Made by a program: the position numbers and the translations under genes
NCBI GenBank assembly: GCA_003645455.1
Contig: QNFE01000015.1
Coordinates: 1-38,335 of the forward strand
Direction of reading: 5' to 3'
DNA from: Gammaproteobacteria bacterium
GTDB lineage: Bacteria > Pseudomonadota > Gammaproteobacteria > QNFE01
Length of the DNA stretch: 38,335 nt
Notes under the pieces: model-generated
Seen by the model: only the letters and a program-made list of their open reading frames with translations
Told to the model about the DNA's origin: nothing
Databases searched by the model: none
Part shown: piece by piece, positions 18,583-31,191 of the stretch
Layout: every line of letters starts with the position of its first letter
How positions within the stretch are numbered: the stretch's first letter is position 1

Positions 18583-19317
18583 GTGAATATATTTTTAAAA
18601 CAATTTGGCAAAAATATTATTGGTAGTTTCAAAGACTTATTACCGATAATAGTTGTCATAGCTTTTTTTCAATTGCTCGTGATTCAAGAACCGATTCCAA
18701 ATTTGGATTCGGTGTTAGTCGGTTTATTATTTGTCGCTTTTGGTTTGGCATTTTTTATTATGGGTTTACAGATGGCATTGTTCCCCTTAGGCGAGAGTCT
18801 GGCTTATTCTTTTGCCTCTCGTGGTAGTTTGAGCCTGTTATTTATATTTAGTTTTTTGTTAGGTTTTGGCACCACCATCGCAGAACCCGCTTTAATTGCT
18901 ATCACAACCGAGGCTGCTAAGGTAGCACAAGATGCAGGCTCAATCGGCAAGCAACCCCAGGATTTAATCAGTTATGCCACAGGTTTGCGATATACCGTAG
19001 CGGTTGCCGTAGGCTTTGCGATAGTTTTGGGAGTATGGCGAATTATCAAAGGCACGCCCATTGCATATTGGATTATCAGCGGATATATTGTAGTTGTTAT
19101 TATTACAATGTTTGCCCCTGCCGAAATTATCAGCATCGCTTATGATTCAGGTGGCGTTACAACCTCCACTATCACAGTGCCATTAGTGACCGCTTTGGGA
19201 GTCGGGCTTGCCACCTCAATCAAAGGACGCAACCCTATCGTTGATGGTTTTGGTTTAATCGCTTTTGCCTCGCTCACTCCCATAATTTTTGTGCTTTTGT
19301 ATGGAATTTTGGTTTAA
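18583..19317 (+). CDS. DUF1538-family integral membrane protein
   Basis: The 244-residue protein starts with GTG and has about six to seven membrane spans. Recognisable family segments are [66 protein letters not shown] and [21 protein letters not shown]1538 proteins come as one or two units and are thought to be transporters, but no substrate is established. A foldback element ends only 12 bases before the start codon, and no ribosome-binding site is visible. Any promoter and leader would have to lie in that element or at the hicBA genes upstream. Confidence 0.85.
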
Positions 19318-23224: not shown

Positions 23225-23923
23225 TTATATTTTCAAGTCACTATTCCATAAAAAATATGATCCATGTTCATTGGTTTTGGCAACACCACCTGCTTGTTTG
23301 CCTTTTTCAGTTAATTCTTCTTTGTTGTCTATTATTTTAATAAAACCATTTTTTACCAACCTACCATTTAATTCTTTTGTTGTAATTTGCAATTCTTTGG
23401 CTAATTTTGAGGTGGTAAGTTTAGATAATTTATTATTTGTTGGTTTAAATGGCTTGTCTTCAATTTTTTTAACTATTATTTCTAACCTCTCACTCTTTTT
23501 TATTATCCGTTCGGCTTCTGAATACACATCTTCATATAGTTTTTTGTCGTCTTCCGATGCATTGTTGCCATTAGAAACAAAAACTCCCATTTCATCATTG
23601 TTTATTTGGCTAAATAAATACAAATTAAGACTGGTGATAATACAAGAATTTTCATTTAAATAACACTTTGCATGTAGGTTTTTAATGTAGCGAGTTTGAA
23701 TATTTTCCATCTTATTGAGCCATTCCGCTTCTTCTTGTTGAAGTTCTTGCTTGCCAAAAACAATAATAACATTTTTTTGATCTCGGTCTTTTTCTTCTAA
23801 CAGTTCTTTTATTTTGTCACTAAATTTTAAGTATGGACTTATTAAAATAAGCCTATCTTTTGCTTCTTTTATCATTTTTTCTAAATGATAATTAGTTGGT
23901 GTCGTTCCTATAAATTTTGCCAT
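23225..23923 (-). CDS. Phospholipase-D-like protein with a C-terminal winged-helix-like domain
   Basis: The 232-residue protein starts with ISPYLKFSDKIKELL and has LHAKCYLNENSCIITSLNL near residue 83, a variant of the H-x-K(x4)D/E...S-x-N catalytic motif of the PLD superfamily. One motif implies a dimer is needed for catalysis. The C-terminal 65 residues (TTSKLAKELQITTKELNGRL, then LTEKGKQAGG and SYFLWNSDL) look like a helix-turn-helix domain found on phage and accessory proteins. No signal peptide is present, so it acts in the cytoplasm. It could cut nucleic acid or phosphodiesters. AGGAG precedes the ATG. Confidence 0.75.
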   Translation of the reverse strand: MAKFIGTTPTNYHLEKMIKEAKDRLILISPYLKFSDKIKELLEEKDRDQKNVIIVFGKQELQQEEAEWLNKMENIQTRYIKNLHAKCYLNENSCIITSLNLYLFSQINNDEMGVFVSNGNNASEDDKKLYEDVYSEAERIIKKSERLEIIVKKIEDKPFKPTNNKLSKLTTSKLAKELQITTKELNGRLVKNGFIKIIDNKEELTEKGKQAGGVAKTNEHGSYFLWNSDLKI

Positions 23924-25259: not shown

Positions 25260-26447
25260 TTATTGATATGTTGCTGTGGTTAATAACTTATATTTTGTAT
25301 GATAAATGCTATTGATTGAGCCTGTTTGAATATTAGCATCTTCAAATGTATGAGACAGTATTGCTATTTTCCTAGAAAATCTATCTGCATCTAATGCAAC
25401 TGGATATTCTTCAAATATAAAGCCGTGATAATATTCTTGGTTTTGCAAGAACTCTGTTAAATTGTCTGCTATGTTTATAAGATGTCTTGTGTCATCAATA
25501 TTAAAACCCTCTGTTAAAAACAACTTGCAATGAGTGTCATCGGTTTCATTCAATAAATCTATTGCTTGTGTAATATCACAATTATTGTCGTTTTCAATAT
25601 CCCATTTACCAAGTCTATCCGTCCGAAAAGAATCTTTGGTGTATTCTAATATCCAGCCACTTTCATAAGTTGTTATGATTGTTGCAACAGGAGAGAGAGT
25701 GCCATCTTTTAATGCTGTTTTTGGTGCATTGCTTGATTTTTGACCTAAACTTAATAAAGCGGTTGCCATACCTGTTTGCCCTATTAGTGTAGAAATATAG
25801 TCATCATCAAATTTCAGATAATCTATCAATTTAGGGTCTTGCTCGTCTTGGGTTTTTCTGGTAAAATAATCAGTTGCCTCTGTTATGTTGAAATTAACAA
25901 CTCTTGTCGTGTTTTGTTTTGGTGGGATTTTTAAAGTATAATCTGTCATATCAAGGTTGGTGAATCTATCTTTTATAACTGTTATTGTGGCATTGTTATA
26001 TTTTCTATCACAAAGCAGAGTATTGCCGTCTGATATATAAGCATTATAGTTTTCATCATTATCATAGGTTGTTTTGTCGGTGGCAACATTCAAACTTGCA
26101 ACAAAATCATTTTGATTGTTTTGATATATTTGCCATTGACTATAACAATTTTCAATGCCTTGATCTGTTTGTGGTTCTATTTTAATCGTGAAGCCGTTTT
26201 GATAGGGTTGATAGGTATAATGAAAATCTTTATCAATAAATATTTGATTGTGTTCTATTTTGGTCGTTAATTCCAATGGGGAAGTTGTATCGTCTCCGCC
26301 ATTGCCTGTGCCACCTGCTGATGGTGTTGATGAACTGCCACCTCCACCTCCACCGCCCCCACCGCAAGCGGTGAGGGCGAGAGTTGTTGTCAAAGCTATT
26401 GTTGATAACAATAGATGAGTTTTAAATTGTTGTGTTTGTTGTTTCAT
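25260..26447 (-). CDS. Lipoprotein with polyglycine linker and Cys-pair module
   Basis: The 395-residue protein has a lipoprotein signal ending ALTAC (Cys28), a run of nine glycines, then a Ser/Gly linker. The Cys-pair module spans about residues 74-190: TYQPYQNGFTIKIEPQ, Cys101 in NCYSQWQIYQN and Cys146 in SDGNTLLCDRKY. About 200 further residues have no assignment. They include TRVVNFNITE and a C-terminal half with DNNCDITQAIDLLN. The signal and linker match those of the lipoprotein at 26467 almost residue for residue, and both genes have GGAGT ribosome-binding sites. The two genes are 19 bases apart. It should be membrane-anchored and exposed to the periplasm or surface. Confidence 0.7.
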   Translation of the reverse strand: MKQQTQQFKTHLLLSTIALTTTLALTACGGGGGGGGGSSSTPSAGGTGNGGDDTTSPLELTTKIEHNQIFIDKDFHYTYQPYQNGFTIKIEPQTDQGIENCYSQWQIYQNNQNDFVASLNVATDKTTYDNDENYNAYISDGNTLLCDRKYNNATITVIKDRFTNLDMTDYTLKIPPKQNTTRVVNFNITEATDYFTRKTQDEQDPKLIDYLKFDDDYISTLIGQTGMATALLSLGQKSSNAPKTALKDGTLSPVATIITTYESGWILEYTKDSFRTDRLGKWDIENDNNCDITQAIDLLNETDDTHCKLFLTEGFNIDDTRHLINIADNLTEFLQNQEYYHGFIFEEYPVALDADRFSRKIAILSHTFEDANIQTGSINSIYHTKYKLLTTATYQ

Positions 26448-26466: not shown

Positions 26467-27033
26467 TTAATAAGGTTGAACATCAAATGATTGAACGTTA
26501 TCCCCGGTATCTTTAATGTCGTCTATAACAATTCTATAATCCGAATTTGCATTAAAATTATCTAACAAATTAGCAAAATAGACCCAAGTAGTATCCACAC
26601 CATAATTTGCACAATGTTGTGTTGCTCCGCTTTCTACATATCCTTCATAATATTCAGTCGTATCACTAAAAAGACTTTTTTCTATTATTTGTATTTGTTG
26701 TTGTGAACCACCTTGATATAGATAATTTGGCACTGATAGACCACAAATCCAAGGGGTATAACCACTCTGCGGTTCAAATAGGATTTTAAAACCATTTGAA
26801 TATGGAGATATCGTTGCTGTCACTATATGGTTGCCAGAGCTATCATAACCATTTTTGCTAACTGGTGAGCCTTGTTGATAACCCACATCAAATGATGATG
26901 AGCTTCCACCACTATCGCTACCTCCTCCACCTCCACCTCCTCCACTATCACAAGCGGTCAAAGCGATAGTTGCTGTCAAAGCTATTGCTGATAACAATAG
27001 ATGGGTTTTAAGTTGTTGTGTTTTTGTTTTCAT
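26467..27033 (-). CDS. Short lipoprotein paralogue with Cys-pair module
   Basis: The 188-residue protein shares its signal peptide and polyglycine linker with its neighbour (ALTACDSGGGGGGGG; Cys28). After the linker it consists of little more than the Cys-pair module: SPYSNGFKILFEPQSG (76-91), Cys97 in WICGLSV and Cys141 in ESGATQHCANYG. The ending SDYRIVIDDI parallels TDYTLKIPP in the longer protein. It is first in a leftward run that continues through the 395-residue lipoprotein. GGAGT lies before the ATG. It gives the minimal boundaries of the shared module. Confidence 0.7.
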   Translation of the reverse strand: MKTKTQQLKTHLLLSAIALTATIALTACDSGGGGGGGGSDSGGSSSSFDVGYQQGSPVSKNGYDSSGNHIVTATISPYSNGFKILFEPQSGYTPWICGLSVPNYLYQGGSQQQIQIIEKSLFSDTTEYYEGYVESGATQHCANYGVDTTWVYFANLLDNFNANSDYRIVIDDIKDTGDNVQSFDVQPY

Positions 27034-27098: not shown

Positions 27099-27286
27099 AA
27101 GTAAAAAATAAAAATTCCTATTATGCATTATTAAAATTTATTAAAAAAGTCGGTTTTGCTCTATCAATCCTAACTTAGCATAACCTATTGTAATTATTAA
27201 GAAATATCTAAATAATTCACAAAAATCATGCAAATATGTCAATATCAAGAGAACATATCCTTTATTGCATGACTCCTAAAAGAACC

Positions 27287-27620
27287 CCGTCATAACGAGG
27301 CGGACGAGAATAGTTGATAATTAATAGTTAACATTTATTAGTTTAAGCAATACTATTAATTTTTAACTATTAACTAATAACTATATAGACTGCCATATCT
27401 CTTGCAAATTATCCGTTTTCTTTTAAGAGATTGCCACACTCGCGGGCTCGCTCGCAATGACGGATAACCTAAAGAATCGTCATTGCGAGGCGTAGCCGTG
27501 GCAATCTCCTGGGGTTTGCCTATCCCTTATGAGACTGCCACACTCGCAAGCTCGCTCGCAGTGACGGATTCTTTTTTTTGTTAGCTCGCTCGCAATGACG
27601 AAAGGTCATAGAGACTGCCA
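27287..27620. repeat. Composite cluster of dispersed palindromic repeats
   Basis: The block opens with CCGTCATAACGAGGCGGACG, shared with 17334 and 28850. Then comes AT-rich filler containing AACTATTAACTAATAACTAT and TAGACTGCCATATCTCT, both shared with 28921-28958. Three to four copies of CTCGCAATGACG or its complement follow in both orientations (about 27451, 27478, 27557, 27590), linked to (A)GACTGCCA or GATTGCCA. The arrangement is irregular and the units are not separated by unique spacers. No gene is present between 27034 and 27686. Confidence 0.75.
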
Positions 27621-27689
27621 GCGAATTACCTAACTTATACAGCAATGGCGAGATTCTTGTTTTGTAGGTTTTATTCATAACTATCTTAA

Positions 27690-27851
27690 GGAAGCTCTGA
27701 ATAACTCCAATAATTATTAAATCAGTAATTTTGCACCATCTTGCAAATTTTTAAAAAGCCACTATAACCCTGCTATTACTGGCTTCTTAAAAATTTGCAA
27801 GATGGCACAAACTCACTAATTTTCTAATCACCGCAGCTAATCAGAGCTTCC
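27690..27851. mobile_element. Second MITE-like element with TTAA target duplication
   Basis: This 162-bp element runs from GGAAGCTCTGA to TCAGAGCTTCC. The two halves are imperfect reverse complements over nearly their whole length, including a shared CCATCTTGCAAATTTTTAA arm near the centre. It is flanked by TTAA on both sides (27686-27689 and 27852-27855). A four-base TTAA-like duplication and GGAAG...AATAA ends recall IS5-group insertion sequences. It carries no gene. Its right end supplies the last codons and the stop of the gene at 27841. Confidence 0.8.
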
Positions 27852-28578
27852 TTAAAATATCTGGGATATGACACATGCTATCTGTAAAGTTTATATTGGT
27901 TGTTAATGTTTTTTCCTCTTGCATATGGATCGCTTTCATTATCTGTTCTTTTACTGTGCCTTTGCCTATTCTTATCCCCATTTTTTCTTTGATAACTAAC
28001 CAACATAATTTTTGAAATTGAGAAATTTTATCTGGATCGTCTGTGCCGGTATATTTTTTTATTTTTGTATTTATAAGAGATTTTGTGTTTTGTGGGTTTG
28101 GATCTTTTTGGAATATTTTTAAACGAGTGCAGAATTTGGTAAGATTAAATATAACATATAAGTCTAAAATCAAAGCCGGCAAAACTCGGTTTTTTATATC
28201 GCTTTTGGTGGTTGTGCTGAGGGTTGATAACATGTTGTTTTTGTCTAAATTGTTTTTAATGAAAATATCTATGGCTTTTATATCTTTGAAATAAGACAGG
28301 CATTCGTATTTTTTAAATTGCCTTTGTAGTCTGCCTATTTTTAATGTTTTGTTATATTTATTAATGTCTCTTGCTAATTTTAAAAAATGTTTGTCTGTAT
28401 GGATGATTGTCAACATATTATAAAAATCTACATGTTTTTTTAGAACAATATTTATAGTGTCGGCAAACTTTTGAATATCGGCTGTATTCGTATTTATTGC
28501 AAAATACCCTATTAGATCTTCTAATAGAACTAATTTTAATTCAATTGGCATAAAATGTTTATTGATAAAAGTTGCCAT
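27841..28578 (-). CDS. Cytoplasmic protein of unknown function, relative of the 405-residue protein at 29224
   Basis: The ATG at 28578 gives 245 residues; a TTG at 28587 would add three. The protein is basic, mostly helical, and has no signal or membrane segment. VDFYNMLTI (50-58), CLSYFKDI (93-100), RVLPALILDLY (131-141) and KLCWLVIKEKMGI (190-202) have counterparts in the same order in the protein at 29224. The final residues, RKL and the stop, come from the foldback element. Removing the element and one TTAA would leave a stop right after the arginine, so the protein is essentially intact. The family is unknown to me. Confidence 0.6.
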   Translation of the reverse strand: MATFINKHFMPIELKLVLLEDLIGYFAINTNTADIQKFADTINIVLKKHVDFYNMLTIIHTDKHFLKLARDINKYNKTLKIGRLQRQFKKYECLSYFKDIKAIDIFIKNNLDKNNMLSTLSTTTKSDIKNRVLPALILDLYVIFNLTKFCTRLKIFQKDPNPQNTKSLINTKIKKYTGTDDPDKISQFQKLCWLVIKEKMGIRIGKGTVKEQIMKAIHMQEEKTLTTNINFTDSMCHIPDILRKL

Positions 28579-28587
28579 TATGAACAA

Positions 28588-28849
28588 TTTACACCGTTTA
28601 TAAAAGTCGGTCTTGGTTTTTGCATAGCAACCTTGATTAAAATTATTTTAAAGTGCATAATTTATTGTGCTGTTTAATAATAAAAACTGCTATTATAATA
28701 ATGAAGGGTGGTTTTAAAAAGGGAAATATGTTTTTTTAAAATTACCATTTTTGATGAATTGAGGATTTTTATTAAACTGACAATAATAAACTAAACTAAT
28801 TGTTTGCAAAAAAGAGAACAAGAGGGGCAGTCCCCTCCACAAAAAAAAT
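28588..28849. other. Non-coding gap
   Basis: This AT-rich stretch lies between the start of the 245-residue protein gene and the next repeat cluster. GAGGGGCAGTCCCCTC near 28822 is a short palindrome (GAGGGG/CCCCTC). I see no gene or RNA. Confidence 0.4.
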
Positions 28850-29180
28850 CCGTCATAACGAGGCGGACGAGAATAATTAATAATTAACAGTTATTAGTTT
28901 AAGTTCCGCTATTAATTTTTAACTATTAACTAATAACTATGTAGACTGCCATATCTCTTTTTGATGTCGTCATAACGAGCGTAGCGAAGTGATCTCTTTG
29001 GGTGTCCGTCTGTTGCAATGAGATTGCTTCGTCTCTTCGTTCCTCGCAATGACGGGATTCTTTTTTTTATTCGGTAATTGTGTAAAATTTAATTATTTTA
29101 TAGTCTCTACTTAAAGTAGCAGGCTCGCTCGCAATGACGGAGGATTTTTTTGAGTTTGTTTTCGCCCTGCAAGATTAGTT
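28850..29180. repeat. Composite repeat cluster, second copy
   Basis: It begins with the same CCGTCATAACGAGGCGGACG block as 17334 and 27287. The AT-rich filler and AACTATTAACTAATAACTAT-TAGACTGCCATATCTCT segments shared with 27367-27412 follow. Next come GTCGTCATAACGAGCGTAGC (28967), ATGAGATTGCTTCGTCTCTT (29019), CTCGCAATGACGG twice (29043, 29128), and CTGCAAGATTAGTTAT (29167), also seen near 1132. These are parts of one modular repeat family. No coding capacity is evident. Confidence 0.75.
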
Positions 29181-29223
29181 ATTTTGTTTTTATTTTTTAA
29201 ATAATTAGAGTTATAACATAAAT

Positions 29224-30441
29224 TTATTTTTGAATTGTTTGTTGTTTTTGGTGTAAGTTTTTGACAAGTTGTGGCAGTGTTTTTTCTTTGTGTAACATTT
29301 CTTTTTCAAGATTTTCTGCATCTTCTTGAATTAACCTATTCCACTCTTCTTGCTCTGCTGGGCTTTGCTTATCCCACTCTTTTTGTTGAGCCTCGTATTG
29401 CAACATATTATTATAGTGTTCTTGATAAATATGAGGGTAGTATTGTTGCAAATAACTCTCATCAATTTTATATATATCCATTCTTTGAAAAAAATTATCA
29501 AATAGAATTTTATCCTCAACAAAGTTATTATATTCTTGAAGTTTGGCAAGATTTTCTATTTTTATAATTTCTTTTAAATCCCCATCTAATGAACTTGTCG
29601 TGTAATTTATTGCCATTTTATCTTGGATTATCATCTTAGCAAATTTTTTAAATTTGATGCCTCTGGCAACATGATGAGTGGCGATAGACACTAAATCTTT
29701 ATCTTTTTTATTTTTGCTTTTATTTTTTTTATTGTCAGAGTCATCATCGGAGTTATTCTCAAATAAGAAAAATTTAAGACGCAAACCAACTTTATTAGCA
29801 ACAATAGGCAGTGAATTTTTCTTTTTTTTATTACCGTCTTTTTTGTCGGTATTTGAAAAAAATCTGCTGTAATGGTTTTGATGTAATAAAAAATATTCCC
29901 AATTAGGTGAGTGATCTGCCCCTTTGTTTTTTAGTTTTTGATAATAATAAACTCTATTGATATGATGGTGATAGTCGGTATAAAGTTTTAACAAAAACGG
30001 ACGGACTATGAATGGTCTGGGGCTATTGCTTTGAATGGTTTCAAACATCACAGAGAAATCCAACCGATCTGTTGGTTCTATTTTAATAATATCTTGCAGT
30101 CCTTTTAACAAAGGATAATATTTAAAAATTGAAAACTTATTATAATATTCCAAACCGTCTATTTGTTTTAATTTATTTTTAAAATCAATTATTTGGCTTT
30201 CATCTGGAGTATTAGTGATTTGTTGTAATGTGATGGATAATTTATCAATCAGCTCTTGTTGTTCTTCAAAAATAGTTAAAACATTATAAAGCTTAACCCT
30301 TTTTTTAATTTGTTCGTTTAAATCGTTGGCAATCGTTTCTAATTCTTGCATCTGTTTATCTGTGGGGGTTTCTCTATCATCTGTTGGTAGATAATATTCA
30401 ATTAACTCATCTGCTGTTACTGCGGTGGCTTTGGCATTCAT
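29224..30441 (-). CDS. Large cytoplasmic protein of unknown function, paralogous to the gene at 27841
   Basis: The 405-residue protein is rich in charged and aromatic residues, with no signal or membrane segment. VKLYNVLTI (49-57), GLEYYNKF (96-103), RPFLLKLYTDYH (147-158) and KMIIQDKMAI (269-278) line up in order with the 245-residue protein at 27841. A disordered Asp/Asn/Lys insertion lies at about 231-249. The C-terminal 100 residues, with QYEAQQKEWDKQSPAEQEEW, are Gln/Glu-rich and probably coiled coil. It begins 18 bases after pyrF and is probably co-transcribed with it. No known family is recognised. Confidence 0.6.
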   Translation of the reverse strand: MNAKATAVTADELIEYYLPTDDRETPTDKQMQELETIANDLNEQIKKRVKLYNVLTIFEEQQELIDKLSITLQQITNTPDESQIIDFKNKLKQIDGLEYYNKFSIFKYYPLLKGLQDIIKIEPTDRLDFSVMFETIQSNSPRPFIVRPFLLKLYTDYHHHINRVYYYQKLKNKGADHSPNWEYFLLHQNHYSRFFSNTDKKDGNKKKKNSLPIVANKVGLRLKFFLFENNSDDDSDNKKNKSKNKKDKDLVSIATHHVARGIKFKKFAKMIIQDKMAINYTTSSLDGDLKEIIKIENLAKLQEYNNFVEDKILFDNFFQRMDIYKIDESYLQQYYPHIYQEHYNNMLQYEAQQKEWDKQSPAEQEEWNRLIQEDAENLEKEMLHKEKTLPQLVKNLHQKQQTIQK

Positions 30442-30459: not shown

Positions 30460-31191
30460 TTATAGTTTTTTATCAAGTCCTGTTTGTATTTCTTGTTGAA
30501 TATTTTTGATTAGTTTGATAGGATCTTCACTGTTACGGATGGGGCGACCTATTACTACATAATCGGCACCATTGATTATAGCTTGTTGTGCAGTGGCGAT
30601 TCTTTTTTGATCGTCATCATTATTTTGTATGTTATGACCTGGACGAATACCGGGATTTATTATTAAAAACTTTTGTCCCTCTTGTATTGGTAAATCATCT
30701 CTGATGGGTTTGGTCTCTAAGGCGGAACAAACAACGCCATCTGCCCCTATTTTTAAAGCCTTACGAGCACGCATTAAAACCAAATCTTCTACTGTACCGC
30801 TCATCCCCATTTGCTCCAAATCACTTTTATCAAAGCTGGTGAGGACTGTGACGGCGAGGATTTTCATAGCAGATTTATCGGCTGTGGCAGCTTTTATAAT
30901 TGCATCGTTGCCGTGAATTGTAGCAAACGAGACACCTCTATTTTTGAGTTGATTGACAGCAAGTTTAACCGTCTCTGGAATATCAAAAAATTTCAAATCC
31001 ACCATTACTTTATTGCCTCTTTTGATTATCTCATCAATGGTTTTAAAGTGATTACTCATAAAAAGTTGCAAACCTACTTTAAAAAATTTTATATGGGATT
31101 CTAATTTTTGGACTAATTCCATCGCCTCATCGTGCGTTGAGACATCCAAAGCAAAAATTATTCGCTCATTTAATGGGATATTTTTTTTCAT
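30460..31191 (-). CDS. pyrF: Orotidine 5'-phosphate decarboxylase
   Basis: PyrF decarboxylates OMP to UMP, the last step of pyrimidine synthesis. The ATG at 31191 gives 243 residues beginning MKKNIPLNERIIFALDV; an upstream in-frame start would add 15 residues with no family support. The active-site D-x-K-x-x-D is VDLKFFDIPETV (Asp65, Lys67, Asp70). FATIHGND, LAVTVLTSFD, GVVCSALE, IINPGIRPG and DYVVIGRPI are the expected later motifs. The unknown 405-residue gene follows after 18 bases. Confidence 0.95.
   Translation of the reverse strand: MKKNIPLNERIIFALDVSTHDEAMELVQKLESHIKFFKVGLQLFMSNHFKTIDEIIKRGNKVMVDLKFFDIPETVKLAVNQLKNRGVSFATIHGNDAIIKAATADKSAMKILAVTVLTSFDKSDLEQMGMSGTVEDLVLMRARKALKIGADGVVCSALETKPIRDDLPIQEGQKFLIINPGIRPGHNIQNNDDDQKRIATAQQAIINGADYVVIGRPIRNSEDPIKLIKNIQQEIQTGLDKKL

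Follow-up and report, generated by a model that had tools for sequence, protein, structure and literature searches.

Two Diverged and Probably Tandemly Duplicated Genes for Predicted Cytoplasmic Proteins beside pyrF in a Gammaproteobacterial Genome

Similarity of orf245 and orf405

We analyzed a contig of 38,335 nucleotides (QNFE01000015.1, positions 1 to 38,335, referred to as a whole as the window) from the assembly GCA_003645455.1 of a Gammaproteobacteria bacterium of the QNFE01 lineage. Two neighboring genes in this window, orf245 and orf405, are diverged homologues, and their shared ancestry is well supported by the sequence comparisons described below. At the border of an accessory stretch of the chromosome, a lineage-restricted gene encoding a cytoplasmic protein, predicted to be mostly helical, was probably duplicated in tandem long ago, giving rise to the pair. 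The genes and the distinctive segments of the larger protein are as follows:

27841-28578, minus strand: orf245, 245 aa, ATG start (open reading frame call and translation)
29224-30441, minus strand: orf405, 405 aa (open reading frame call and translation)
orf405, residues about 198-250: Lys/Asp-rich linker, an insertion relative to orf245
orf405, residues about 335-405: Gln/Glu-rich, coiled-coil-like tail

The two genes lie on the same strand, separated by a gap of 645 nt, and both are genuine coding genes. Using codon statistics trained on the core genes of the window, the in-frame per-codon log-likelihood was +0.077 for orf245 and +0.161 for orf405, and all other frames gave negative values. 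The possibility that orf245 is a decayed copy is not supported, as its frame is intact and the coding signal is present. A plausible ribosome-binding sequence, AGGA, was found for orf405, and no clear one was seen upstream of orf245. The Lys/Asp insertion and the Gln/Glu-rich tail, which had been noted in a preliminary description of this DNA, are both real features of the larger protein; orf245 has neither the long linker nor the tail. The same description called the two proteins cytoplasmic, in agreement with our inspection by eye, which revealed no signal peptide or membrane stretch in either of them. We also noticed that the linker-coding region (29800-29850, minus strand) contains eight consecutive A, a G and then five more A, representing a possible slippage site.

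The identity between the two proteins is about 24%, and BLASTP gave an E value of 0.006 in a single comparison. The Smith-Waterman score of the pair was 89, as compared with a mean of 42.1 (sd 7.0) for 2000 shuffled sequences (z 6.7, p 0.0005). Shuffling that kept the local composition (20-residue) gave a z of 6.3, global alignment gave a z of about 6.0, and reversal of one sequence, used as a control, lowered the Smith-Waterman score to 50. The similarity is significant and co-linear over most of the shorter protein, as in a pair of paralogues. When the aligned blocks, whose borders were drawn post hoc after inspection of the alignment, were scored apart, the p values were 0.0002 for the N-terminal, 0.027 for the middle and 0.001 for the C-terminal block, and the order of the blocks was identical in both proteins. 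By protein similarity, orf245 and orf405 ranked third of the 528 pairs formed by 33 window genes, preceded only by a lipoprotein pair that is an obvious duplication (25260-26447 with 26467-27033) and by two Lys/Glu-rich proteins of low complexity. An hhalign comparison of the single sequences gave E values of 0.0025 (global) and 0.0064 (local), and local alignment of five shuffled controls gave 0.065-0.81; the accompanying probability figure was low, as expected because the proteins have no family members. The homology of the two proteins thus draws its support from the shuffles, the reversal, the block tests, the ranking of gene pairs and the hhalign E values relative to the shuffled controls, and the earlier characterization of the genes as a diverged pair is borne out by BLASTP, the shuffles and the N- and C-terminal blocks.

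Four ordered motifs had been described as common to both proteins, and we found that two of them are literal and co-linear. Motif 1, V-x-[FL]-YN-[MV]-LTI, is present as VDFYNMLTI (residues 50-58) in orf245 and VKLYNVLTI (49-57) in orf405, and motif 4, [VI]-I-x-[ED]-KM-[GA]-I, as VIKEKMGI (195-202) and IIQDKMAI (271-278), respectively. The other two did not hold as stated. The motif 2 sequences LSYFKD and LEYYNK do occur, one in each protein, but they are not paired by the alignment, which instead sets LSYFKD against FKYYPL. Motif 3, R-x4-L-x-L-Y, is inexact, having no literal fit in both proteins (RVLPALILDLY and RPFLLKLY), and its segment aligns as I-x4-L-x2-L-x2-D-x5-N. AlphaFold2 models built from two-row alignments were all-helical, with pLDDT values of 35.0 for orf245 and 39.2 for orf405, which carry no usable confidence.

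Searches for Related Families and Genes

Neither protein had a match above the curated cut-off in Pfam or NCBIfam, nor any match in PHROGs. PADLOC returned no family up to an E value of 5, giving no indication that either protein is a member of an anti-phage defence system, and nothing convincing was found among PDB sequences. These searches are in accordance with the earlier statement that the proteins have no recognizable family. Matches to DUF5045, DhaR, SRE, GatC and an acetyltransferase were rejected as low-scoring, short and under the curated cut-offs where these exist.

Two partial likenesses were considered further. HI1480 of Haemophilus influenzae (PDB 1MW5, PF22186) resembles orf405 over 34 residues around motif 1 (VKLYNVLTIFEE / VKLYSVATLFHE), the two proteins having a similar VKLY-[NS]-V-x-T stretch. 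The score of orf405 against PF22186 was 14 bits (E 0.056), below the curated cut-off of 24.5, and orf245 was not listed. In the PDB search, orf405 matched HI1480 with E values of 0.45-1; a two-sequence profile of the N-terminal part gave an E value of 1.1, and the full profile of orf245 and orf405 gave no HI1480 match at E ≤ 5. Kinship with HI1480 was rejected, as the likeness is at chance level and nothing was gained by adding orf245. Similarly, 54 residues of orf245 scored 19.1 bits (E 0.0011) against the C-terminal domain of Alp7A (PF22128). However, this falls short of the 22 bits set as the curated cut-off, orf405 showed no match, and orf245 has neither a matched N-terminal actin-like ATPase domain nor a PDB match. 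Membership in Alp7A_like_C was rejected on the grounds that the score is under the cut-off, involves orf245 alone and is accompanied by no actin-like domain.

When the genome itself was searched with a profile of the pair at E ≤ 10, only orf245 and orf405 were recovered. The suggestion that they may be two of several accessory copies is therefore not supported, as no third copy was detected in this genome. No relative of either protein was found among plasmids and phage records, in pattern-based scans of viral contigs, or in short-pattern scans of genome contigs. A single-sequence search of 369 genomes of the same class, carried out for each protein, gave weak matches only. The match in genome G208 was rejected as lying inside an open reading frame whose product looks like a radical-SAM enzyme of the PqqE type; that in G085, which belongs to the same genus and involves the same query residues, was taken as equivalent, and that in G027 was dismissed as running across a stop codon. 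A profile search of 398 genomes of the same phylum added one further weak match, which was confined to the Gln/Glu-rich tail and was also rejected.

Genes of isolated orders often appear orphan. Because the genomes searched include no other member of the family or order of this bacterium, the orphan status of the pair is weak evidence of novelty; the term lineage-specific, offered as one possibility in the preliminary description, is compatible with all of our searches of this set. According to one report (PMC10003748), taxonomically restricted (ORFan) genes in Bacillus form small clusters of homologues. The pair resembles the clusters outlined there in being a small paralogous group of one lineage, as far as searchable, and differs from them in the organism; what the two have in common is the kind of gene and not homology.

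Neighborhood of pyrF and Transcription

Two further features bear on the expression of the pair:

30460-31191, minus strand: pyrF, encoding orotidine-5'-phosphate decarboxylase; it precedes orf405 on the same strand at a distance of 18 nt
28821-28838, minus strand: terminator-like hairpin with a T-rich tract after it, in the gap separating orf245 and orf405 (consensus match only)

In the window, folD is located upstream of pyrF. A tie of the pair to pyrF had been proposed, and adjacency, with a gap of 18 nt, is indeed seen in this genome, but it did not extend to the other genomes examined. For this comparison we took 20 pyrF loci from among the closest in other genomes, which show about 48-56% identity to the PyrF found here and include none from the same order; an unfiltered profile search of the fetched flanks detected no such gene, only short open reading frames at chance level. 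Likewise, folD was absent from the fetched stretch at all 20 loci. Conservation beside pyrF in sister genomes, if true, would indicate a tie to pyrimidine synthesis.

The terminator-like hairpin between the two genes suggests that orf245 is transcribed separately from orf405. In the arrangement that we propose, orf405 would be read together with pyrF, and orf245 would be on its own transcript. Rfam gave no match in the window.

Dispersed Repeats and a MITE-Like Element

Repetitive sequences are found on both sides of orf245:

28841-28959, no strand assigned: copy of a dispersed repeat, between orf245 and orf405
27278-27403, no strand assigned: second copy of the dispersed repeat, downstream of orf245
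27690-27851, no strand assigned: MITE-like palindromic element of 162 bp, with flanking TTAA (target duplication) at 27686-27689 and 27852-27855

The first of these copies corresponds to the repeat cluster that had been described as separating the two genes. Its position was given correctly. However, the repeat has 65 matches genome-wide, of which about 15 are long and the others partial or self-inverted, and since the family is spread over the genome, a copy between these genes is not special. The seeming association of the pair with a repeat cluster is a by-product of how abundant dispersed repeats are in this genome.

A strong inverted repeat at 27682-27859 resolves into the 162-bp element, which has GGAAGCTCTGA/TCAGAGCTTCC ends. 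At least seven further near-full-length copies were found, of which three are likewise flanked by TTAA on either side, and the element occurs in about a dozen or more genomic places. We take its ends and four-base target to resemble those of IS5-type elements; no transposase was identified. The 3' end of orf245, comprising its final codons and its stop, is contained in the element. When the flanks were joined without the element, the reading frame ended in ...PDILR-stop, as compared with ...PDILRKL-stop in its presence. Since this reconstructed empty site has a stop codon immediately behind the point of insertion, the gene received a new end from the element and was not shortened, and truncation of orf245 by the element was rejected.

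Origin and Possible Function of the Pair

The co-linear similarity, the location on one strand, the adjacency, the lack of a third copy and the genome-wide distribution of the repeats argue for tandem duplication as the probable origin. One lineage-restricted ancestral gene would have been duplicated in tandem, in place, and the repeats and the MITE would have arrived after the duplication. Joint acquisition of two related genes that had already diverged would look identical to duplication in place. An alternative and rather unlikely reading is that the genes are mobile-element or phage remnants that were acquired jointly, for example as an accessory pair, and not a vertically kept family of this lineage. 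The pair adjoins an accessory stretch with unknown lipoproteins and a PLD-domain protein that strongly matches PHROGs phrog_9329, and is surrounded by the repeats and the MITE; however, neither protein itself matches PHROGs, phage records, plasmids or viral contigs, as a phage protein might, and we recognized neither an integrase nor any further phage gene beside the pair.

We consider it decidedly improbable that the resemblance stems from the shared composition of Lys/Asn/Ile-rich helical proteins, at about 28% GC, and not from homology. Although the identity is only 24%, the compositions are alike and the hhalign probability is low, the observed score was reached by only about 0.05% of the shuffles that preserved the whole or local composition (z over 6), it was lost on reversal, and the other window pairs were far lower, except for the known duplicate and the low-complexity pair. 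We see hardly any chance that the bacterium is host-associated and the proteins are secreted and directed at the host, the Glu/Gln-rich C-terminus of orf405 serving as the secretion signal. Some secreted proteins do have charged C-terminal tails and are orphans; however, orf245 has no such tail and orf405 comes immediately after a housekeeping gene.

The function of the pair can be suggested only tentatively, and the following proposal is more likely wrong than right. The proteins may be helical binding or scaffold proteins, in which the shared core would make the contacts, and the linker and tail of orf405, absent in orf245, would form an arm for oligomerisation or partner binding. Very little credence can be given to the further-reaching idea of a new family with a new helical fold, whose copy with linker and coiled coil, co-transcribed with pyrF, would perhaps regulate nucleotide supply, or act as a scaffold for it, in a lineage-specific manner. 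The finding is an ordinary one for a bacterium of a thinly sampled order. Bacterial orders with poor sampling have many genes restricted to one lineage, and this small unnamed paralogous family is an addition to them.

Other Genes of the Accessory Stretch

A gene for a DUF1538 protein (18583-19317, plus strand) stands at the start of the accessory stretch, which lies between priA and folD. The PLD-domain protein (23225-23923, minus strand) showed a full-length match to phrog_9329, with an E value of 1.4e-69, and weak matches to several DISARM DrmC and PADLOC candidate models. We recognized no further defence gene near it. Two adjacent lipoprotein-like genes (25260-26447 and 26467-27033, minus strand) encode poly-Gly stretches after the lipobox. 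Their 110-nt 5' ends are 81% identical and their products show the best protein similarity in the window; judged by these likenesses, the two genes are a clear local duplication.
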